Shown here piece after piece: positions 8,531 through 46,628 of a stretch of 64,000 bases of DNA (the stretch's first letter is position 1; every line of letters starts with the position of its first letter). The DNA comes from Parahoeflea alexandrii (lineage in GTDB: Bacteria > Pseudomonadota > Alphaproteobacteria > Rhizobiales > Rhizobiaceae). Below the pieces are notes generated by a model. That model did no database searches and had not been told where the DNA came from. It was given only the letters and a program-made list of their open reading frames with translations. Location of the stretch: positions 558,001 through 622,000 of the forward strand of contig NZ_JAAAML010000003.1 in NCBI RefSeq assembly GCF_024105735.1. Reading direction: 5' to 3'. The position numbers were made by a program, and so were the translations under genes.

Positions 8531-8997
8531 GCGGCTTCGCTGTCGCCCTGCGCCTTGAGCGCCCGTCGCAGCTGACCGAGCAGCGAATGCATCTGGGCGA
8601 ATTGCTCCACTGACAACCCGAAGGCTTCGGCCACGCAGCCGGGTACGTGGCTTGCCTCCTGTTCCAGCGCGATGCCGGCCGGAGTAAGAAGCACACGCAC
8701 CTTGCGTTCGTCGGCCGCATCGCGTTTGCGCGATACCAGCCCCTGGCTTTCCAGCCGCTTGATCAGCGGGGTGAGGGTGGAGGAGGCGAGGTCCAGCCGT
8801 TCGCCAAGCTGTCCGACGGTCTGTCTGTCCTGCTCCCACAGCACGATCATCACCAGGTATTGCGGATAGGTCAGCCCCAGCTTCGACAGAAGCGGCTGGT
8901 AGACCTGTCCGACCGCATGGTGGGTCGCGTAGATATCGAAACACAACATGGATTCCGGTCTCAGCCTGAATCCGTCCGGCAGTTTCACATCGACCAT
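8527..8997 (-). CDS. ohrR: Organic hydroperoxide-sensing MarR-family repressor
   Basis: A 156-residue winged-helix repressor. The peroxidatic cysteine is Cys19 in MLCFDIYATHHAVGQVY, the conserved OhrR N-terminal block, and a second cysteine at 121 suggests the two-Cys type that forms a reversible disulfide when oxidised by organic hydroperoxides. The DNA-binding wing motif is visible around residues 70-105 (LASSTLTPLIKRLE, DERKVRVLLT). It is divergent from ohr, and a perfect inverted repeat lies between them, as in known ohrR/ohr pairs. The start at 8997 removes 17 unsupported residues. Confidence 0.93.
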   Translation of the reverse strand: MVDVKLPDGFRLRPESMLCFDIYATHHAVGQVYQPLLSKLGLTYPQYLVMIVLWEQDRQTVGQLGERLDLASSTLTPLIKRLESQGLVSRKRDAADERKVRVLLTPAGIALEQEASHVPGCVAEAFGLSVEQFAQMHSLLGQLRRALKAQGDSEAA

Positions 8998-9086
8998 TCG
9001 GTTTCTCCCCTGTCCGGCAAACCTATTTCTCGCAGTCAGACGGCGCAATGACTTGCATCAAGCCCGATTCAATCATATATATCGTG

Positions 9087-9101
9087 TACGATTAAATCGT
9101 A
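9087..9101. promoter_or_regulatory. Probable OhrR operator
   Basis: TACGATT-A-AATCGTA is a perfect 15-base inverted repeat, close to the TACAATT-AATTGTA sites described for OhrR. It lies 17 bases before the ohr ATG and 89 bases before the ohrR ATG, placing it to repress ohr and possibly ohrR. Confidence 0.75.
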
Positions 9102-9118
9102 AACAAAGGAAATTGACC

Positions 9119-9541
9119 ATGGTTACGAAAGTTGTCTACAGCACATCGGCCACCGCAACCGGCGGCCGCGACGGACGCTCGAAAACCCACGACGGGGCAG
9201 TGGATGTCAATCTCGCCGTTCCCACTGAAATGGGCGGCCCTGGCGGCGGTGTGAACCCGGAACAGCTTTTTGCCACCGGCTACGCCGCCTGTTTCCTGGG
9301 CGCGCTGAAGTTCTACGCCGGCCAGCAAAAGGTGAAGGTGCCTGATGAGGCCACCGTGACGGTAACGGTTGGCATCGGCCCGCGCGAAGATCCCGGCTTC
9401 GGTCTCGACGTCAAGATCAAGGTCGATCTCCCGGGCATCGACAAGGACGTGGCCGAGGATCTGATCGCCGGCGGCCACAAGGTCTGCCCCTATTCGCACG
9501 CCACCTCCGGTACGCTCAGCATCACACCGGAACTTGCCTGA
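9119..9541 (+). CDS. ohr: Organic hydroperoxide resistance protein (Ohr peroxidase)
   Basis: A 140-residue thiol peroxidase that reduces organic and fatty-acid hydroperoxides to alcohols using lipoyl groups. The catalytic pair is Cys58 (GYAACFLGAL) and Cys123 (HKVCPYSHAT), with the family opening KVVYSTSATATGGRDG. AAAGGA lies eight bases before the ATG. It is divergent from its repressor ohrR. A strong hairpin follows the stop codon. Confidence 0.96.
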   Translation: MVTKVVYSTSATATGGRDGRSKTHDGAVDVNLAVPTEMGGPGGGVNPEQLFATGYAACFLGALKFYAGQQKVKVPDEATVTVTVGIGPREDPGFGLDVKIKVDLPGIDKDVAEDLIAGGHKVCPYSHATSGTLSITPELA

Positions 9542-9568
9542 GACCTCCAGGCCTTGACCTTCCAGCGA

Positions 9569-9594
9569 ACCACCGGGCCTTGCGGTCCGGTGGT
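9569..9594 (+). terminator. Hairpin downstream of ohr
   Basis: An 11-base-pair stem (ACCACCGGGCC with GGTCCGGTGGT, one G-T pair) closes a four-base loop. No long T-run follows immediately, so it may act on both strands between ohr and the convergent small gene at 9612, or simply protect the 3' end. Confidence 0.55.
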
Positions 9595-9611
9595 CAGGCG
9601 TTAAGCGCCTT

Positions 9612-9887
9612 TTAGGCGCTTGCCACCACGCGCTCGAGAAACTCTTTTTCGCGTTCCGCGATGCGCGCTTCCTCGGCTTCAATGTAGTTTCGGGTGATCG
9701 GAGCCGTGGCCGCATTGAGCTCCGGATTGATCAGGATCTTCAACGGAGCCGTGGACGACGTGAAGCGGATCGCGGCTTCGGGGCCGGGTTCCTTGCCTCC
9801 GAATTCCCGGGTGACGCCCTTGGCGTCCTCCACCGTCAGGCGACCTTTCCCGATGGCCTTGTCGATAAATCCGTACAGCGAAAGCAT
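9612..9887 (-). CDS. Small protein resembling the N-terminal domain of CFA synthase
   Basis: A 91-residue protein. Residues 1-60 (LYGFIDKAIGKGRLTVEDA, EFGGKEPGPEAAIRF, LKILINPEL) look like the N-terminal lipid-binding segment of cyclopropane-fatty-acyl-phospholipid synthase. Where that enzyme continues toward its methyltransferase domain, this one ends in a charged helix (EAEEARIAEREKEFLERVV). The SAM-binding domain is absent, so it cannot be a methyltransferase by itself. GGAG precedes the ATG at 9887. It may be a decayed remnant or a stand-alone membrane- or lipid-binding protein. The family call is from memory of conserved blocks. Confidence 0.6.
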   Translation of the reverse strand: MLSLYGFIDKAIGKGRLTVEDAKGVTREFGGKEPGPEAAIRFTSSTAPLKILINPELNAATAPITRNYIEAEEARIAEREKEFLERVVASA

Positions 9888-10049
9888 GGCTTCTCCGTTC
9901 TGGCAGGCCAGGTTTCCACATGAACACACATCTCTCGGACCGCATGCGGCTAGGGAAGCAGGTCCGGCCTTTCAGGTAAAGGTCCCGGGTACAGCCGGGC
10001 TCCGCAGCTGATCGGATTGAGGGGCACTGACCGACCAGCCGAGCCGGAG

Positions 10050-10673
10050 TCAGCCGGCGAACTGGGCCCTGTTGTCTCCGCTCATGCGGACTTCGCCGCG
10101 CGCCAGCATCGCCAGCGCCATCGGGTAGATCCGGTGCTCGGCCTCAAGCACGCGGGCTGCAAGTGTATCGGGCGTGTCGCCGCGCTCCACCCGCACCGCT
10201 TCCTGCTCGATGATCGGGCCTTCGTCCATGCCTTCGGTGACGAAATGGACCGTGCAGCCATGCACCCTGCAGCCGGCGGCCAGAGCCCGCTCATGGGTGG
10301 CAAGGCCGGGAAAGGCCGGCAGCAGCGACGGGTGAATGTTGATCATCCGTCCAGCGTAGCGTTTGACAAAATCCCCGGACAACAGCCGCATGTAGCCCGC
10401 GAGCGCGATGATCCGCGCGCCTGACGCATCCAGTGCGGCAATGACCGCGGCCTCGTGATCCGCCTTGCTGGGATAATCGCTGCGCGGGATAGCCAGCGCC
10501 TCGATGCCGAACTCGCGGGCGTGTTCCAGCCCCTTGGCTTCGGGCTTGTCCGAGATCACCGAGACGATCTTGGCCGGAAACCCAGCATCCAGCGCGGCGG
10601 CGATCAGGGCTCCCATGTTCGAGCCCCGGCCGGAGATCATCACCGCGACCGACACTTTCGGCTGATCGGTCAC
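10050..10673 (-). CDS. purN: Phosphoribosylglycinamide formyltransferase
   Basis: A 207-residue enzyme of de novo purine synthesis; it transfers the formyl group of 10-formyl-THF to GAR. The phosphate-binding loop [12 protein letters not shown] is near residue 12, and the catalytic block [13 protein letters not shown] and [15 protein letters not shown] are present. The GTG at 10673 overlaps the TGA of purM (GTGA), so translation is probably coupled; the longer open frame upstream is antisense-like sequence within purM. It forms the usual purM-purN operon. Confidence 0.96.
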
Positions 10674-11740
10674 AGCGACAGCGTTCCCTTGTAGACAACG
10701 CCGGGGCCGTTGTCGGCCCGCCGCGTCAGCCGTCCGAGCCGGATGACCGTCTCGCCCTCGGCTTCCAGCGCGGCAATAACGCGGTCCGCATCCGCTTCGG
10801 GCGTGACCGCGATCATGCCGACGCCGCAATTGAAGGTGCGCAGCATCTCCTCGGGCGCCACGCCGCCGGTCTTGGCAAGCCATGAAAACACGGCTGGAGA
10901 CTTGATGGCGTCGAGGTCGATTTCCGCCGCAATCCCTTCGGGCAGCACGCGCGGCAGGTTTTCCGGGAATCCGCCGCCGGTAATGTGCGCCAGCGCCTGG
11001 ATGGCGCCGGTCTGCCGGATCGCCGCAAGCAGTGGTTTGACATAGATCCGGGTCGGTTCGAGCAGCGCCGCACCAAGGCTGCGCGAGGCATCGAACGGGG
11101 CAGGGGCGTTGTAATCGAGCCCGCTGAGCTCGACGATCCGGCGCACCAGCGAGTAACCGTTGGAATGCACCCCGGAGGATGCAAGGCCCAGCACCACATC
11201 TCCTTCCGACAGCGTGCCCGAGGGCAGCAGCTGGCCGCGTTCGGCCGCTCCCACGGCAAACCCGGCGAGGTCATAGTCGCCATCGCGGTACATGCCGGGC
11301 ATTTCCGCCGTTTCGCCGCCGATCAGCGCGCATCCGGCCTGCAGGCAGCCCTGTGCGATGCCCGCGACGATTGCCGCGCCCTGTTCCGGATCGAGCTTGC
11401 CGGTGGCGAAGTAGTCGAGAAAGAACAGCGGTTCCGCGCCCTGGACGACGAGGTCGTTGACGCACATGGCGACGAGATCGATGCCGACGGTATCGTGGAT
11501 GCCGGCTTCGATCGCAACCTTCAGCTTGGTCCCTACGCCATCATTGGCGGCCACCAGCACGGGATCGGTAAAGCCTGCGGCCTTCAGGTCGAACAGGCCG
11601 CCAAAGCCGCCGATCTCGCCATCCGCACCCGGCCGCCGTGTTGCACGCACCAGCGGCTTGATGCGGTTGACCATCTCGTTGCCGGCATCGATATCAACGC
11701 CCGCCTGGGCGTAGGTGAGGCCGTTCTTAGGATCCGCCAT
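10670..11740 (-). CDS. purM: Phosphoribosylformylglycinamidine cyclo-ligase (AIR synthetase)
   Basis: A 356-residue ATP-dependent enzyme that closes the imidazole ring of AIR in purine synthesis. Conserved blocks are [17 protein letters not shown] at the N-terminus, [20 protein letters not shown] and [22 protein letters not shown] lies just before the ATG at 11740. A run of eight G (11783-11790) occurs in the leader. It is first gene of purM-purN and divergent from the CDP-alcohol transferase gene. Confidence 0.97.
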
Positions 11741-11945
11741 CTTGGCTTCCCCTCCCTGGGTTTCAAAGGAGCATCATATGCCGGGGGGGGATGGCATTTT
11801 GCGGGCCATTCTGCAAGCCGGAGCTTGGTTGCAAAGCGAACAAACGTCGGGAAAAAGCTTTGCCCGCGTGCTATTGCGGTCGTGAACCATTTAAAAACCG
11901 CCGGCCAGTCTCCATATCGCCATCGTTCAGGATCGTTCGCTGCCC

Positions 11946-12491
11946 ATGACGCTGCCCAATTTCATAACGATTGCCCGGTTCATAATGGTTCCGCTGATCA
12001 TCCTTGCCATGATCAATGGCGAGATGCTTGCGGCATTCCTGCTGTTCATGCTTGCAGGCATTTCCGACGGTCTCGACGGTTTGATTGCCCGGCATTTCAA
12101 CCAGCGCTCCGAACTGGGATCCTGGCTCGATCCGGTAGCCGACAAGTTCCTGCTGGTCAGCGTTTTTATCATGCTCGGCTGGCTCGGCGAGCTTCCAAGC
12201 TGGCTGGTGATCTTTGCCGTCTCGCGTGACGCTCTTATTGTCGGCGCGGTGGTGCTCTCGAGCCTTCTCGACAATCCGGTCGAAATGCGGCCGCTGCTGG
12301 TATCCAAAGCCAACACCATGGTTCAGATCGTTCTACTCATCCTGGTGCTGGCCGATCTCGCCGGCCTTGCTGAGCTCGACGGCATCGTCAGATGGATGAT
12401 CTATGCGGTCGCGGGCTTGACCATCGCTTCAGCCAGCGCCTATCTCGTTACATGGCTCCGGCACATGGCCGGTGTGAATCAGCCGGACTGA
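11946..12491 (+). CDS. CDP-alcohol phosphatidyltransferase family protein
   Basis: A 181-residue inner-membrane enzyme with the family motif DG-x2-DG-x2-AR-x8-G-x3-D-x3-D, read here as DGLDGLIAR then GSWLDPVADK. Such enzymes swap CMP in CDP-diacylglycerol for an alcohol; the class includes phosphatidylglycerophosphate and cardiolipin synthases, and the substrate here is not certain. About five to six membrane helices are visible. It leads a same-strand run (PerM-like protein, hdaA, ppk, ppx) conserved in rhizobia. Confidence 0.88.
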   Translation: MTLPNFITIARFIMVPLIILAMINGEMLAAFLLFMLAGISDGLDGLIARHFNQRSELGSWLDPVADKFLLVSVFIMLGWLGELPSWLVIFAVSRDALIVGAVVLSSLLDNPVEMRPLLVSKANTMVQIVLLILVLADLAGLAELDGIVRWMIYAVAGLTIASASAYLVTWLRHMAGVNQPD

Positions 12492-12539
12492 CCTTTGGCG
12501 GATTTTGGCGGCCGCGAACGGCCTGCAAGCGAGGTGATC

Positions 12540-13667
12540 ATGACCACTCACATAGACCGTGCGGCGCTTCGCCGGCAGTTCTTCTTCTGGTTGCTGGCCT
12601 TTGCGGTCGTCGTCGCCTTCCTGATGGTGTTTCGTTCCATCCTGCTGCCCTTTATCGCCGGTATGGCGCTGGCCTATTTTCTCGATCCGGTGGCCGACTG
12701 GTTCGAACGCCGCGGGTTTTCCAGGCTGATGGCGACCTTCGCCATCCTGATCGCCTTCATAGCCCTGTTTGCCATCGCGCTGATCGTGCTGATTCCGATC
12801 CTGGTAACCCAGGCGGCCGATCTCGGCGGCAAGATTCCGGGCTACATCACCCAGTTGCAATCCCTGTTGACGTCGGAAACCACCCTGCTGCCGGGCTGGA
12901 TCAGCAGTCAGCTCGATCAGATCAAGGACAGTTTTGCCGCGCTGCTGAAGGAAGGTGCCGGCCTGGTCGGCACAATCTTCCAGCAGATCTGGAACTCCGG
13001 CATGGCGCTGCTCGACATCGCAGCGCTGTTCGTGGTCACCCCGGTGGTCGCTTTCTACCTGCTGCTCGACTGGGACAACATGGTGGAGAAGGTTGATGGC
13101 TGGATCCCGCGCGATCATGTCGACACCGTTCGCGAACTAGCAAAGCAGGTTGATGCGACCATTGCCGGCTTTGTCCGCGGGCAGGGCAGCGTCTGTATCA
13201 TCCTTGGTCTCATATATGCGGTCGGCCTGTCGCTGGTCGGGCTGAATTTCGGGCTTCTGATCGGGCTCTTTGCAGGTCTGATCAGCTTTATCCCCTATGT
13301 CGGCTCGATGGTCGGCCTGGTGCTGGCAGTCGTCGTGGCCATTGTCCAGTTCTGGCCCGATTTCATCATGATCGGTGCGGTGATCGCGGTTTTTGCGCTT
13401 GGCCAGTTTTTCGAGGGCAACATCCTGCAGCCGCGGCTGGTCGGCAAATCGGTGGGCCTGCATCCGGTCTGGCTGATGTTTGCGCTGTTTGCCTTTGGCG
13501 CCCTGTTCGGTTTCGTCGGCATGTTGATCGCGGTGCCCGCGGCAGCCTCTGTCGGCGTTCTGGTGCGCTTCGCCATTTCCCGTTACCTCGACAGCGATCT
13601 CTACCACGGAACCAGGCGACCGGCGCCGCTGACGGCCGGATCCGCCGACGACACCACGGGTGACTGA
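12540..13667 (+). CDS. AI-2E/PerM family transporter
   Basis: A 375-residue membrane protein with the AI-2E family layout: paired N-terminal helices (about 12-58), an amphipathic central region (about 110-170) and a cluster of C-terminal helices (about 215-350) with the family-typical SFIPYVGSMVG and GNILQPRLVGKSVGLHP. Members have been linked to autoinducer export or sodium/proton antiport; the real substrate is unknown. GAGGTG precedes the ATG at 12540. Its TGA overlaps the ATG of hdaA by one base, so the two are coupled. Confidence 0.88.
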   Translation: MTTHIDRAALRRQFFFWLLAFAVVVAFLMVFRSILLPFIAGMALAYFLDPVADWFERRGFSRLMATFAILIAFIALFAIALIVLIPILVTQAADLGGKIPGYITQLQSLLTSETTLLPGWISSQLDQIKDSFAALLKEGAGLVGTIFQQIWNSGMALLDIAALFVVTPVVAFYLLLDWDNMVEKVDGWIPRDHVDTVRELAKQVDATIAGFVRGQGSVCIILGLIYAVGLSLVGLNFGLLIGLFAGLISFIPYVGSMVGLVLAVVVAIVQFWPDFIMIGAVIAVFALGQFFEGNILQPRLVGKSVGLHPVWLMFALFAFGALFGFVGMLIAVPAAASVGVLVRFAISRYLDSDLYHGTRRPAPLTAGSADDTTGD

Positions 13668-14371
13668 TGGGCAAACCACCCGCAACCCGTCAGCTGCCGC
13701 TCGCTTTCGACCATGGCTCCGCTTCCGGGCGTGACGACCTGATCGTCTCCGACCGTTTGAACGCGGCGGTTGCGATTGTCGACCGCTGGCCCGACTGGCC
13801 GGCGCCGGTCGTCATCCTGGCTGGCCCTACCGGGTCGGGAAAATCTCATCTCGCGGGCATTTGGGCGGGCCTTGCCGGCGCAAGCCGGGTCAGCATCGAC
13901 AAGCCCGATCCGATGGTTCTGGAGATCGCCACGCGCGCGCCGGTGCTCATTGAGGACATTGATCACACCCGGTTTGACGAAACCGCGCTGTTCCATCTGA
14001 TCAATGCTGTCCGCGAAAATGGCAGCGCGCTGCTGATCACCAGTCGTGTCTGGCCCGCGGCCTGGCCGGTGTCATTGCCTGACCTCGCCTCCCGCCTGAA
14101 AGCGGCGACGGTGGTCGAAATTGCCGAGCCCGATGAAGAGCTGCTGGCCCAGGTCATGGTCAAGCTGTTCGCCGACCGGCAGGTCGTCGTCGATGACCGC
14201 ATCATCCACTGGCTGGTGGCCCGCATGGAGCGCTCGCTCGCCGCGGCCCGCACCATCGTCGCCCGTCTTGATCAACTGGCGCTGGCCAGGGGGTCGAAGA
14301 TCACCCGCGCGATGGCCGCGGAGGTTTTGGCGCAAATGGAGGCCGGAACGGACGACACGGAAGTGTCATAG
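13667..14371 (+). CDS. hdaA: DnaA-regulatory protein HdaA (Hda homologue)
   Basis: A 234-residue AAA+ protein related to the DnaA ATPase domain, lacking DnaA's DNA-binding domain. The N-terminal RQLPLAF (residues 8-14) is the beta-clamp-binding motif that tethers Hda to replicating DNA, where it triggers ATP hydrolysis by DnaA and prevents re-initiation. The Walker A GPTGSGKS is near residue 53 and the Walker B VLIEDID near residue 93. The ATG overlaps the stop of the PerM-like gene. The position before ppk is conserved in alphaproteobacteria. Confidence 0.92.
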   Translation: MGKPPATRQLPLAFDHGSASGRDDLIVSDRLNAAVAIVDRWPDWPAPVVILAGPTGSGKSHLAGIWAGLAGASRVSIDKPDPMVLEIATRAPVLIEDIDHTRFDETALFHLINAVRENGSALLITSRVWPAAWPVSLPDLASRLKAATVVEIAEPDEELLAQVMVKLFADRQVVVDDRIIHWLVARMERSLAAARTIVARLDQLALARGSKITRAMAAEVLAQMEAGTDDTEVS

Positions 14372-42420: not shown

Positions 42421-42867
42421 ATGGCGATACTGCAGATCGGCACCGCCCCGGAAGTCGGCACCGGCGCGATCGAAGCCAGCTTCCGGCTGTTCGTCCGGCT
42501 GGTGGCGTTGAGTTCGCTGCTTGCAGGGCTGCACTATTGGGGGCGTCTGATCGGTTACTCCGATGGCGGCGTCTACCGGTTCGATCTTATCCCGTCCTAC
42601 TGGCAACTGGCATCGGCCTCGCTTGCGGTTTTGCTGCCGGTGGCGGCGGTCGGCCTGTGGATGCAGGTCTCCTGGGGACCAGTGCTCTGGGTGGTGGCGG
42701 CCGGTTCTGAAATCATCATGCACCAGGGCTTGCCACAATGGTTCGGAGAGCGTCCGCTGCTGATTGCAGCCCACGCGGTGGTCATCTGCGTCTATGTCGG
42801 GTTTCGCATGGCACTCTTCGTCAAGCGACGCTTTGACGCCAGGCAGGTAACAACTGATTCACTTTGA
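42421..42867 (+). CDS. DUF6163 family membrane protein
   Basis: A 148-residue protein with four hydrophobic segments (about residues 22-42, 55-80, 83-100, 112-132). It matches the small DUF6163 proteins that sit beside ldtR in rhizobia. Function unknown; position suggests a link to cell-envelope regulation. AAGGAG is eight bases before the ATG. Confidence 0.82.
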   Translation: MAILQIGTAPEVGTGAIEASFRLFVRLVALSSLLAGLHYWGRLIGYSDGGVYRFDLIPSYWQLASASLAVLLPVAAVGLWMQVSWGPVLWVVAAGSEIIMHQGLPQWFGERPLLIAAHAVVICVYVGFRMALFVKRRFDARQVTTDSL

Positions 42868-42992
42868 TTGACGGTCGGTGACGGGTAACCCGCTGTTAAG
42901 CTTGCAGTTTAAGTAGAATTTTAGGCGTATTCGATAGGGTCTGTCTCAAGGCGGGAACAAAAGCCGCCACAACAAACAGTGAGGCAGTCATC

Positions 42993-43517
42993 ATGTCATA
43001 TACCAATTCAGCTCTTGCGGCGGGACCCAAATCCGCAGTTGCAAACGACGAATCCGAGGCCCTGCGTGATCTCTATCTGGAATCACTGCAGCTGGTCGAG
43101 CGGCTCCACCGCCGTCTTCTCGATGTCATCAAGGACGAGTTCGACCGCGCCAATCGCACCGACATCAATGCCATCCAGGCCTTGCTGCTGTTCAACATCG
43201 GCAATTCCGAACTGACGGCGGGCGAGTTGCGCAGCCGCGGCTACTATCTCGGCTCCAACGTCTCCTACAATCTCAAGAAGCTCGTTGATCTCGGCTACAT
43301 CAATCACCAGCGTTCGCGGGTCGATCGCCGCGCAGTGCGCATCAGCCTGACCGAGCACGGTGCCGAAATCGCCGAGACGGTAGGCGCGCTTTATGACCGT
43401 CACATCAATTCGATCGCCAAGGTCGGCGGTATCGGCGCCAGCGAGTTCGAGGAGCTCAACAAGCTGATGCAGCGCCTCGACCGGTTCTGGAACGACCAGA
43501 TCCTCTATCGCCTCTGA
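42993..43517 (+). CDS. ldtR: MarR-family regulator LdtR (L,D-transpeptidase regulator)
   Basis: A 174-residue winged-helix protein. The recognition region GELRSRGYYLGSNVSYNLKK and wing SRVDRRAVRISLTEHG are near-identical in style to LdtR of Liberibacter and rhizobia, which activates the L,D-transpeptidase gene ldtP and is linked to osmotic tolerance. In those genomes ldtR and ldtP are neighbours; here about 1.58 kb with two inclusion-body-type genes separates them. GAGG lies eight bases before the ATG. A strong terminator follows. Confidence 0.9.
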   Translation: MSYTNSALAAGPKSAVANDESEALRDLYLESLQLVERLHRRLLDVIKDEFDRANRTDINAIQALLLFNIGNSELTAGELRSRGYYLGSNVSYNLKKLVDLGYINHQRSRVDRRAVRISLTEHGAEIAETVGALYDRHINSIAKVGGIGASEFEELNKLMQRLDRFWNDQILYRL

Positions 43518-43546
43518 ACCGGCGGTCCATACCAATCCAGTAAAAC

Positions 43547-43573
43547 GCGGCGGGCTCCAAACCCGCCGCTTTT
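43547..43573 (+). terminator. Rho-independent terminator after ldtR
   Basis: GCGGCGGG pairs perfectly with CCCGCCGC around a seven-base loop and is followed by TTTT. It isolates ldtR from the inserted genes. Confidence 0.92.
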
Positions 43574-43699
43574 CGTTTGCGCTCCCGGTCCGGGCGGCAG
43601 ACGCCTCCGCCGGTGTGGAACAGTCGTGTCTCTAAATACAACTTAAAATATTTATGATTATTGATTGCAACCTATAGAATATAAGCCTAGCCTGATAAG

Positions 43700-43723
43700 C
43701 GGCATTCCGGCTCGGGAATGCCG
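43700..43723 (+). promoter_or_regulatory. Leader stem-loop upstream of the first PixA-like gene
   Basis: CGGCATTCC pairs perfectly with GGAATGCCG across a six-base loop, ending 37 bases before the ATG at 43760. The stretch before it (about 43630-43690) is strongly AT-rich and probably contains the promoter. No T-run follows, so a role in message stability or regulation is more likely than termination. Confidence 0.55.
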
Positions 43724-43759
43724 ATCCGGCACTTCAACCCAAATACGAGGAGACATCTC

Positions 43760-44173
43760 ATGAGCCAGCCAAGTCCGGGCAATTGCCCCGTCCAGATCCA
43801 GGTCTATGTCGACACCAACGCGGCCAAGCAGAATTCCACCGCCGGCGTCTACATGGTCGACAATCGTGTCAACAGCGGCAGCACAGGCGAGGGGTCGCTC
43901 GATCTGGACACCAATGTATCGAAGGCCTCGAACGTCTGTTTTCAGGTCATCAACATCGATGCGACATCCGATGTGACGGTGGAGTTTACATCCTTCGGCA
44001 ACTCCAATGCCTGGGGAACCCAGATACCCGCCATGTGGGACAACAATGCCAAGGTCTGGACCGCGCAGGCGGCCAACCAGGGCGGCAATCAGCCCTACAG
44101 CTTCGTTCTGCGGGTCGGAAATGCCACCCCGTTCCAGGTCAGCGTGACCACGCCGACGCTGACCGTCAGCTGA
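43760..44173 (+). CDS. AidA/PixA-family inclusion-body-type protein, paralogue 1
   Basis: A 137-residue cytosolic protein with no signal peptide. VQIQVYVDTNAAKQ followed by GVYMVDNRVNSGSTGEGSL aligns with the opening of the second paralogue and of PixA/AidA proteins, where a beta-sandwich domain forms. It is shorter than the second copy and lacks its C-terminal WDPYI. PixA makes methionine-rich crystalline inclusions in Xenorhabdus; AidA is a quorum-regulated host-interaction protein in Burkholderia and Ralstonia. Here methionines are few. GAGGAG is seven bases before the ATG. The next gene starts 48 bases on. Confidence 0.72.
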   Translation: MSQPSPGNCPVQIQVYVDTNAAKQNSTAGVYMVDNRVNSGSTGEGSLDLDTNVSKASNVCFQVINIDATSDVTVEFTSFGNSNAWGTQIPAMWDNNAKVWTAQAANQGGNQPYSFVLRVGNATPFQVSVTTPTLTVS

Positions 44174-44221
44174 TTTTCCAGACACCGGACAATCATCAGC
44201 CAAACCGAGGAAGGAATAGAA

Positions 44222-44722
44222 ATGTCCAACGCCATGGTATTGATCAGTCAGAACAGAAAGCCGAACCTGAGAGCTCCCATCGTCCAGACCGCCGTCACGA
44301 TCGCGCTCGACACCAAGTACCTCATCTCGCAGCCGCCGGGAACCAATTCGCGCGGCATCTACATGTTCGACAACCGCGTCAACAACGGCAGCAGCAACGA
44401 GGGGGGACTGGAACTGTCGACCGTGTGCAATGCCGGAGACATCATGAGTTTCGAGGTCATTGCCATCAATGAACTCATGGGTGGTTCCGCCGACACGGTG
44501 AAGATCACCGGCTTCAACGTCTCCCAGGGCAATGTCTTCGGCGGCAGCGAAGGCGCACCCATCCCCTATCATCTGCCGGGCACGTCGCCCGGTGCCTACT
44601 GGCTGGCCCAGGCGGTCAACGCCGGCCAGCAGGTCTACCAGATCTTCGTCGAGATCACGAGTTCGGGTCTGCACCCGATCGTCCGCGACATCACCTGGGA
44701 TCCCTACATTACCGCGAAGTAG
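44222..44722 (+). CDS. AidA/PixA-family inclusion-body-type protein, paralogue 2
   Basis: A 166-residue cytosolic protein. It has the full PixA-like pattern: a beta-strand opening (VTIALDTKYLI), IYMFDNRVNNGSSNEGGLEL, a central DIMSFEVIAI strand, YWLAQAVNAGQQVYQIFVEI, and the closing WDPYI that matches PixA's WDPFI. No signal peptide or membrane helix is present. GAGGAAGGA precedes the ATG, predicting strong translation, as expected for an abundant inclusion protein. A terminator follows. The family assignment is by recall of conserved blocks, not a search. Confidence 0.8.
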   Translation: MSNAMVLISQNRKPNLRAPIVQTAVTIALDTKYLISQPPGTNSRGIYMFDNRVNNGSSNEGGLELSTVCNAGDIMSFEVIAINELMGGSADTVKITGFNVSQGNVFGGSEGAPIPYHLPGTSPGAYWLAQAVNAGQQVYQIFVEITSSGLHPIVRDITWDPYITAK

Positions 44723-44745
44723 GATCCCGTAGGCCTTTGGCAATC

Positions 44746-44773
44746 AGCCGGCGCAACGGGCGCCGGCTTTTCT
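44746..44773 (+). terminator. Rho-independent terminator after PixA-like pair
   Basis: AGCCGGCGC pairs perfectly with GCGCCGGCT over a five-base loop, followed by TTTCT. It closes the two-gene transcription unit. Confidence 0.9.
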
Positions 44774-45096
44774 CATGCGGCGGCGTCAGCGCCCCCTGGT
44801 TTGGCACGATGGCATGAAGCAAGTTCGCTGCAAACAGCCGGGCAGGGTGCGCGCTGGGCAGGTCTCTTGCCGTCACCTTGCGGCATTGCCGAATCCGGAA
44901 CATCAATTAGCCATATTGCCGTGAGACCGGATGTGCTAAGAATGGGGCTGTGGAAATGCGGTTTTCTCCGGTCGCGGGCTCACGCAAAAGTGTTGCGGCT
45001 TGCTTGAAGGAGCAGTTTTGGTCCCCATTTCTTAACGTTAACAATGGTACGAAAAACCGGACCTGACGCTAGAACCGATTGCATGGTGGATGACGC
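44774..45096. other. Intergenic region upstream of ldtP
   Basis: 323 bases without a supported gene. It must hold the ldtP promoter. The clearest signal is the near-palindrome TTCTTAACGTTAACAA (45029-45044), with a perfect TTAACGTTAA core, 52 bases before the ldtP ATG. The rest shows no clear structure. Confidence 0.55.
45029..45044. promoter_or_regulatory. Candidate LdtR operator upstream of ldtP
   Basis: A 16-base inverted repeat with one symmetric mismatch and a perfect ten-base core TTAACGTTAA. LdtR is a MarR dimer known to bind the ldtP promoter in related bacteria; I cannot recall its exact site, so the match is by position and symmetry only. Confidence 0.5.
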
Positions 45097-46368
45097 ATGA
45101 ACAAGCCAACCCGACCTGATACACTCTCCCGTCGCCGTTTTATCGGTCGCGCCGCAGCGCTGGCCGCTACGACCGTCGTGGCAGGTCCTGCTCTGGCTCA
45201 GTCCGCGATTGAAGATATCATCAATTCGCCGCGCCGCGGCACCTGGGACGACCAGTTCGACGCCAAGAGTTCGCGCTCTGTGGCAGCGACCGCCACACGT
45301 CACCCGATTGCGAGCGCCGACACCATCGCCTTCGTCGAGCGCGCAATCTTCGACTACCAGAACCTTGTCGCCCGCGGCGGCTGGCCGATCGTGCCCGCCA
45401 CCAAGAAGCTGCGCATGGGTGTCTCCGAACCCGAAGTCCGCCTCCTGCGTCAGCGGCTGATGGCATCGGGCGATCTTGACCGCAACGCCGGTCTCTCCAA
45501 TGCATTCGATTCCTATGTCGACGGCGCGGTCAAGAAGTTCCAGGCCCGCCATGGCCTTCCGCCGGACGGTGTGCTCGGCAGCTACTCCTACCAGGCGCTC
45601 AATGTCTCCGCCGATGTCCGCCTCGGTCAGTTGGAGACGAACCTCGTGCGGCTGCGCTCGATGTCGGGCTTCCTTGGCGACCGTTATGTCATGGTCAACA
45701 TTCCGGCTGCCCAGATCGAGGCCGTGGAGAACGGCTCGGTGGCGCTGCGCCATACAGCCATTGTCGGCAAGATTGACCGTCAGACGCCGATCCTCAATTC
45801 GAAGATCCACGAGATCATTCTCAACCCCTATTGGACCTCGCCGCGCTCGATCATCGAGAAGGACATCGTTCCCCTGATGCGCAAGGATCCAACCTATCTG
45901 GCGCGCAACAACATCCGCCTGTTCGACGGCAAGGGCGAGGAAGTCGCGCCGGAAATGGTCGACTGGCATGCTGAAAAGGCGCCGGAACTGATGTTCCGTC
46001 AGGATCCGGGCAAGGGCAACGCCATGTCCTCGACCAAGATCAATTTTCACAATCCGCACGCGGTCTACATGCACGACACCCCGCAGCAGGGCGTCTTCAA
46101 CCAGCTCATGCGGTTTGAATCCTCGGGCTGCGTGCGTGTGCAGAACGTGCGCGATCTCAACACCTGGCTGCTGCGCGACACGCCCGGCTGGAACCGCCAG
46201 GCTATCGAGGCGACGATCGCTTCGGGGGAAAACACCGAGATTGCGCTGTCGACTCCGGTGCCGGTCTATTTCACTTACTTCACCGCCTGGGCCTCTGGGG
46301 ACGGAATTGTCCAGTTCCGTGACGATGTCTACCAGCGCGACGGCGTCGACGAACTGGCGCTGCGCTGA
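45097..46368 (+). CDS. ldtP: L,D-transpeptidase, Tat-exported (LdtP)
   Basis: A 423-residue periplasmic enzyme that makes 3-3 peptidoglycan cross-links or attaches proteins to the wall. It starts with a Tat leader (SRRRFIGRAAALAATTVVA, residues 11-29), then a peptidoglycan-binding domain (about 100-175, FDSYVDGAVKKFQARHGLP) and a YkuD catalytic domain with FESSGCVRV, catalytic Cys345. It is the expected target of LdtR encoded 1.6 kb upstream. A strong terminator follows. Confidence 0.94.
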   Translation: MNKPTRPDTLSRRRFIGRAAALAATTVVAGPALAQSAIEDIINSPRRGTWDDQFDAKSSRSVAATATRHPIASADTIAFVERAIFDYQNLVARGGWPIVPATKKLRMGVSEPEVRLLRQRLMASGDLDRNAGLSNAFDSYVDGAVKKFQARHGLPPDGVLGSYSYQALNVSADVRLGQLETNLVRLRSMSGFLGDRYVMVNIPAAQIEAVENGSVALRHTAIVGKIDRQTPILNSKIHEIILNPYWTSPRSIIEKDIVPLMRKDPTYLARNNIRLFDGKGEEVAPEMVDWHAEKAPELMFRQDPGKGNAMSSTKINFHNPHAVYMHDTPQQGVFNQLMRFESSGCVRVQNVRDLNTWLLRDTPGWNRQAIEATIASGENTEIALSTPVPVYFTYFTAWASGDGIVQFRDDVYQRDGVDELALR

Positions 46369-46377
46369 ACCGGCACC

Positions 46378-46405
46378 ATTGCTGAGAGATGATTGCTGAG
46401 AGATG
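46378..46405. repeat. Tandem 14-base direct repeat after ldtP
   Basis: ATTGCTGAGAGATG occurs twice in succession (46378-46391, 46392-46405), between the ldtP stop and its terminator. It looks like a local duplication by replication slippage. Confidence 0.8.
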
Positions 46406-46411
46406 ATCCTG

Positions 46412-46439
46412 AAAACCGCCCCTTGCCGGGCGGTTTTTT
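46412..46439 (+). terminator. Rho-independent terminator after ldtP
   Basis: AAAACCGCCC pairs with GGGCGGTTTT over a six-base loop and runs into TTTTTT. Confidence 0.95.
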
Positions 46440-46628
46440 GTTCTGCGCTGCACAATGACGCAATCAGGACGGCGGATATTGCCCTCGTCATGCGACGGGG
46501 GTAAACAGCCGCATCCGGACCGGAACACATTGCTCCGGATTCGAGCTAATCTTTGGACGTCGCCAGACCACAGGCGGACGTTACGTCAGACCCGAGCCAT
46601 ACCCCGAGTCACACAAGGAACCCGGAAC

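Follow-up and report, generated by a model that had tools for sequence, protein, structure and literature searches.

The window, a 64-kb stretch of the 4.9-Mb genome, harbors two small genes on the same strand, here called p1 and p2, which are separated by 48 nt and lie between the gene of the regulator LdtR and a gene in the position of ldtP (Table 1). This tandem pair had been pointed out by a first, sequence-only reading of the DNA, and we found it at that place and in that order. The paralogy of the two genes was confirmed by pairwise comparison of their products (36% identity over 102 aa, E 3e-12), and purine-rich ribosome binding sites were present before both p1 and p2 (GAGGAG and GAGGAAGGA, respectively). 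No signal sequence was apparent by eye in either protein.

Table 1. Features of the region between ldtR and ldtP, with positions counted from the first letter of the window
Feature	Position	Strand	Description	Basis
ldtR	42993-43517	+	MarR-family regulator, upstream neighbor outside the cassette	NCBIfam NF047395, 284.5 bits (cut-off 250)
ldtR terminator-like stem-loop	43543-43573	+	Homology to pair-free sites ends here on the left	Scan and folding
Putative inserted segment	43578-44895		Outer limits	Homology edges against relatives lacking the pair
p1 leader	43630-43700	+	Presumed promoter region	AT-rich, 28% GC
Inverted repeat	43700-43723		Perfect, CGGCATTCC-N6-GGAATGCCG, 9-bp arms, 36 nt before p1 start	
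p1	43760-44173	+	137 aa, AidA/PixA/MakCD-superfamily protein	NF049870 match (below cut-off), no PF12306 match
p2	44222-44722	+	166 aa, AidA/PixA/MakCD-superfamily protein, p1 paralogue	NF049870 match (below cut-off), PF12306 below cut-off
Terminator-like hairpin	44746-44768	+	Intrinsic type with T tail, 3' of p2	Terminator scan, folding
Conserved element	44906-44923	+	ATTAGCCATATTGCCGTG, ldtP leader, retained	Found in 68 of 74 loci with 13 or more of its 18 positions
ldtP	45097-46368	+	L,D-transpeptidase, judged from its domains and position; downstream neighbor outside the cassette	PF03734 and PF01471 above cut-off

The upstream neighbor is indeed LdtR, as had been proposed: it scored above the cut-off of the curated model, and its closest named relatives among the matches listed were from Hoeflea (91-95% for five of them), the genus to which we assign the window. 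For the downstream neighbor, the proposed identity as LdtP stood with regard to its YkuD and PG_binding_1 domains and its position, but not with regard to curated LdtP models, of which none was matched at its cut-off (best NCBIfam score of 237 versus 425 bits). In Liberibacter, the adjacency of ldtR and ldtP and the binding of LdtR to both promoters have been published (PMC3999280). The same adjacency was found in 74 of the 80 related loci listed (out of 543 encoding LdtR relatives, three being short stretches), and the other six gave no ldtP match in the stretch taken.

The ldtR-ldtP interval spans 1579 bases in this genome. We compared it with those of the 17 other genomes of the genus, two of which are 75-77% complete and one 9% contaminated. 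The ldtR gene was present in all 18 genomes, and none of the other 17 had a p1 or p2 match at the ldtR stretch, nor a p2 match anywhere. Sixteen of their intervals were complete and measured 337-1047 bases, and one stopped at a contig end past the ldtP element. The two nearest genomes by ldtR (98% and 96%) thus also lacked the pair, one of them being covered just to the contig end. Similarly, p1/p2 homologues were found in none of the 80 listed loci, a sample that overlaps the genus set by six Hoeflea loci. The pair is therefore not universal between ldtR and ldtP.

Alignment with five relatives lacking the pair placed the left homology edge at 43573 in three and at 43578 in two of them, and the right edge at 44895-44898 in four; in the fifth (L131), homology resumed weakly from 44828. 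By inspection, a stem similar to that following ldtR lies in the same position in the relatives displayed. With the pair absent from sampled relatives and the signals of the neighboring genes intact, the region looks, from these comparisons, like a lineage-specific insertion, flanked by the terminator of ldtR on one side and the element before ldtP on the other. This supports the simple insertion that the sequence-only reading had considered as an alternative. Neither a duplicated target site nor a mobile gene was recognized at the insertion. An alternative history, in which the remaining sampled Hoeflea all lost the pair, is possible but takes more events than a gain in this lineage. In GC3 and codon usage, p1 and p2 resemble 50 mechanically chosen other ORFs of the window, a composition that fits a settled, working pair and would also fit old residence combined with loss in the sampled relatives. 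A 73-base blastn match between the insert and the locus L055 (E 2e-4), which appeared alongside many short pieces, was taken as chance because the p1 and p2 proteins had no match in L055.

Long gaps between ldtR and ldtP also occur elsewhere. The gap exceeded 900 bases in 15 of the 74 listed loci (L004, L011, L012, L013, L022, L031, L037, L046, L049, L059, L060, L061, L070, L071, and L079). Ten gap ORFs from nine of these loci were scanned: four could be named by Pfam (DUF1295, YrbL-PhoP_reg, DUF4062, and DUF4238), and six remained unnamed. An ORF on the minus strand that reads as DUF1295 was seen in 5 of the 16 complete intervals of the genus and was checked against Pfam in L004. Because such gaps recur with differing ORFs, the ldtR-ldtP gap appears to be tolerant of cargo.

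The pair has its own AT-rich leader, as described before, with a GC content well below that of the window as a whole (62%). A promoter scan found no match to the sigma-70 consensus in this leader. The inverted repeat at its end is a candidate operator or mRNA hairpin. It is the sole perfect copy in the genome, where two further copies with 2 mismatches were found, and its folding is unremarkable (z of -1.5, with 15 of 200 shuffled versions of the stretch folding as well). The terminator previously assigned to the pair was recovered as a hairpin with a fold z of -2.2, equaled by 3 of 200 shuffles. However, a scan of 43400-45200 gave four terminator-like sites versus a mean of 2.0 in shuffles, so that such hairpins alone represent modest evidence. 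The hairpin after ldtR was placed at 43547-43569. One of the hits of the scan, a weak stem of 5 pairs at the end of p1 (44158-44170), is a mild argument against a single p1-p2 transcript. No known RNA from Rfam was matched in 42800-46600. Overall, the pair appears to be insulated by terminator-like hairpins on both sides, and the conserved element before ldtP is retained.

This 18-base element (ATTRGCCATATTGnnRTG) starts 121-281 bases before ldtP and falls below 13 matching positions in only 6 of the 74 listed loci. It gave one match in the window versus 0.05 expected, and as a background, the region before ldtR gave at best 9 to 13 matching positions across the 80 listed loci. Its conservation and place make it a candidate control site of ldtP. 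It is not matched by the published Liberibacter LdtR box and provides a separate small lead on ldtP control.

The assignment of the pair to the AidA/PixA proteins held in the broad sense of a superfamily, while the strict relation to PixA proved distant and the nearest sequence relatives detected were of the MakC/MakD type. With the PixA profile PF12306, p2 scored 17.8 bits (E 0.004), below the cut-off of 21, and p1 gave no match; the profile-based part of the claim therefore stood for p2 only as a sub-threshold match. A search of the whole genome with PF12306 gave no match, as did a search of 14 control genomes. The NCBIfam model NF049870 (MakCD) matched both proteins with much better values (47.8 bits and E 1.3e-12 for p1, 58.2 bits and E 8.1e-16 for p2), but its cut-off of 110 was not reached. 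By these scores, p1 and p2 are similar to MakCD but outside the NF049870 subfamily.

Searches against the PDB were in line with this. Used as single sequences, p2 and p1 matched 8rqy, an 'Inclusion body protein', with E values of 0.00045 and 0.0017, and MakD (6tct) only with 0.61. A profile made of p1 and p2 only improved these values to 2.3e-7 for 8rqy and 0.0028 for MakD, and a five-row profile (A1) reached 2.4e-17 and 1e-13. Profile A1 contains p1, p2, two rows from the genome G071, and one from the genome G578, the three added rows having been found via the MakCD model. The entry 8rqy is probably MakC, because it resembles the product of the second of two adjacent genes in G884, a genome of the same phylum; the code does not appear in the text of the MakC paper. 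In hhalign, p1 and p2 aligned with this G884 pair with an E of 5.8e-10. The two proteins of the G884 pair likewise stay below the cut-off of PF12306, and failure to reach it is thus compatible with superfamily membership. On the PixA side, G974 encodes a genuine member of 184 aa (PF12306 with E 5.8e-60; matches to 4q52, 4pib, and 4lzk), and p1 and p2 compared with this protein aligned with that of G578 gave an E of 7.9e-6. A seven-row mixed profile found MakCD-type and PixA-type structures alike, which proves little because it was built from members of both types. The single-sequence structure model of p2 had a pLDDT of 38, and a nine-member tree contained no supported fork and lacked the resolution for placing p1 and p2. 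Judged by these profile comparisons, p1 and p2 are members of the broad AidA/PixA/MakCD superfamily, closer to MakCD and inside neither curated family.

The family had been called scarcely described in Rhizobiales, and it was rare in all samples searched. These samples overlap, and the queries differ in reach. The MakCD model, which had our genome as positive control and matched none of the 14 control genomes, was found in 2 of 394 genomes from the same taxonomic family (our genome and G071) and in 2 of 385 from the same class (our genome and G578). With profile A1, our genome was the only match among 397 from the order, and 3 of 398 from the phylum matched (our genome, G884, and G974). Searching with p2 itself gave only our own genome among 297 genomes of the family and among 18 of the genus; this query reaches near relatives only, since it missed members of the G071 type. 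Plasmids gave no match to p1 or p2, and phages gave no match to p2. Viral contigs gave no p2 match in a search that detects close relatives only, and none of four pattern-matching stretches was a relative. A phage or plasmid origin was discarded on these results. A single PHROGs match was obtained with p1 (E 0.0025); the family concerned has no known function. PADLOC gave no defense match. The literature searches, which left out most subscription journals, listed no paper describing genes of this kind from Hoeflea. The presence of the family in Alphaproteobacteria is not new, since AidA-like PixB proteins from this class are mentioned in the paper on Bnr1 (PMC9060813).

Based on this, we consider it reasonably probable that p1 and p2 represent an AidA/PixA/MakCD two-gene cassette that this lineage gained by insertion downstream of the ldtR terminator and ahead of the ldtP leader, and that works as an independent unit. 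According to this model, the cassette would have been acquired by this Hoeflea lineage at a place where both neighbors kept their signals, and p1-p2 would be transcribed as one unit from the leader of p1. By analogy to MakC and MakD, the products would be two small acidic cytosolic beta-sandwich proteins forming homo- or heterodimers. The recurring adjacency of members of the superfamily (makDC, aidA/bnr1, and the G884 and G071 genes) suggests either hetero-oligomers or two tuned copies. Expression of AidA, PixA, and the mak genes has been reported at high cell density or in stationary phase, and p1-p2 may follow this pattern. The genome encodes 2 LuxI-type and 8 autoinducer-binding matches, so that density control of p1-p2 is possible; no lux-type box was established in the p1 leader, and the two luxI loci yielded no reference box. 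We propose that the proteins could act inside the cell as binding or assembly proteins, be it as a partner, a regulator, or a store, outside the LdtR cell-wall response.

A different view would place the pair within that response: p1-p2 would belong to the LdtR regulon together with ldtP, and the proteins would assist the cell under osmotic or envelope stress. In its favor, the pair lies directly 3' of ldtR, and the p1 leader is AT-rich like the published Liberibacter LdtR box (PMC5481520). However, the leader matches this box at 11 of 18 positions, as do 27% of shuffled sequences. The test is weak because the box is equally unremarkable before ldtP (10/18) and ldtR (11/18) of this genome. The leader likewise matches the conserved ldtP element at 10 of 18 positions, as unrelated leaders do. 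What argues against LdtR control is instead the terminator-like hairpin after ldtR, the retention of the ldtP element, and the changing cargo, with unrelated ORFs occupying the gap in other lineages and no such genes there in the listed loci. We therefore regard a place in the LdtR regulon as improbable. The link between protein inclusions and envelope stress suggested by the sequence-only reading is likewise unsupported, since no LdtR-type site was recognized in the p1 leader (by the same weak test) and the gap holds unrelated ORFs elsewhere.

The resemblance to MakC and MakD raises the alternative that p1-p2 correspond to the first genes of a mak-type operon (makDCBAE) whose pore-forming toxin genes have been lost or were never present, and that they retain a helper or regulatory role for other proteins. 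In agreement with this, the closest relatives detected are of the MakC/MakD type, and the pair in G884 is followed by three ORFs, one of which matches the HBL family (PF05791). Moreover, in V. cholerae, the simultaneous deletion of makC and makD impaired MakB, lowered MakE, and impaired the secretion of MakA, while deletion of either gene alone had no significant effect on MakA (PMC11484084). Nevertheless, the pair is flanked here by ldtR and ldtP, with no toxin family among the four proteins scanned, and the members in G071 and G578 have no recognized toxin neighbor in the ORFs displayed or scanned, most of these ORFs being unscanned. The nine-member tree does not help to place p1 and p2 on a mak branch either, and we find such an origin unlikely. 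Even less probable, and on a par with LdtR control, is a function as a DNA mimic or global regulator that binds DNA-binding proteins, as in Burkholderia Bnr1, an acidic dimeric PixA-family protein encoded together with aidA and proposed to mimic DNA (PMC9060813). The first protein is acidic (pI 4.3, net charge -4) and the second mildly so (pI 5.2, net charge -3), but these net charges are modest, and Bnr1 is described in that paper as reported from Burkholderia only. Furthermore, acidity fails to distinguish p1 and p2, since it was found in 8 of 9 proteins of the family that were examined.

We thus favor the gained, independent cassette. As a broader and doubtful extension of it, the ldtR-ldtP gap might be a cargo site of Rhizobiaceae chromosomes, where this lineage might have taken up a free-standing, toxin-less MakC/MakD-AidA pair that would function by itself as a density-controlled heteromeric assembly. 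If true, the pair, rather than the toxin operon, would be the exchanged functional unit of the family. In any case, a pair situated between unrelated genes, with nearest relatives that lack it, offers a clean with/without comparison for studying the function of the family away from toxin genes.

Among the known systems, the AidA proteins of Burkholderia, Ralstonia, and Photorhabdus belong to the same superfamily as p1 and p2. In Burkholderia, aidA and bnr1 also form a two-gene operon, which is among the most quorum-regulated genes (PMC9060813); SdiA controls the aidA gene of Photorhabdus, and SolR governs the two aidA genes present in Ralstonia (PMC10143992). Unlike p1-p2, and as far as they can be compared by description, these systems are under quorum or LuxR-type regulation and linked to a host (PMC9060813, PMC10143992). 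The likeness to the PixA proteins of PF12306 (4lzk, 4pib, and 4q52) is weak but consistent, with the sub-threshold p2 match, a profile E of about 8e-6, and a C-terminal W-D-P-x-I-T common to p2 and the proteins of G974 and G578. The differences lie in the score below the gathering threshold, the lack of a match for p1, and a length of 137 and 166 aa compared to 184 aa in G974.

In the genomes searched, G578 and G974 have one superfamily member each. The gene of G578, an alphaproteobacterium, is a single PixA-family gene (L090, 9401-9784; PF12306, 34.3 bits) with a palindrome in its AT-rich leader (TAGTCATATGACTA), and about 4 kb away lies an ORF whose product looks, on inspection, like a protein with LuxR-type DNA-binding domains. 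The array of G071, a genome of the same family (L089), resembles the pair in that it is tandem and of the same superfamily, with three clear members and one weak one. Unlike p1-p2, it adjoins a gene for a pyridoxal-dependent decarboxylase (PF00282) as well as an ORF with a below-cut-off similarity to PaaK-type ligases. A Tn3 transposase and a resolvase lie about 2.5-3 kb from this array (8748-13809), and the locus is possibly a mobile small-molecule cluster.

The closest parallel is provided by MakC and MakD of Vibrio. They are cytosolic beta-sandwich proteins that form dimers in crystals, are encoded by adjacent genes, and are non-toxic alone, and their 'functions remain unknown' (PMC11484084); the mak genes are under the control of the quorum-sensing regulator HapR (PMC6123715). 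Unlike MakC and MakD, p1 and p2 reach about half of the NCBIfam cut-off, and the N terminus of p2 is longer. In addition, whereas the mak genes form an operon with genes of pore-forming toxins, it is ldtR and ldtP that flank p1-p2. Nevertheless, p1 and p2 share with MakC and MakD (6tct for MakD; 8rqy) a similarity over most of the domain, the small size, and the arrangement as an adjacent paralogous pair.
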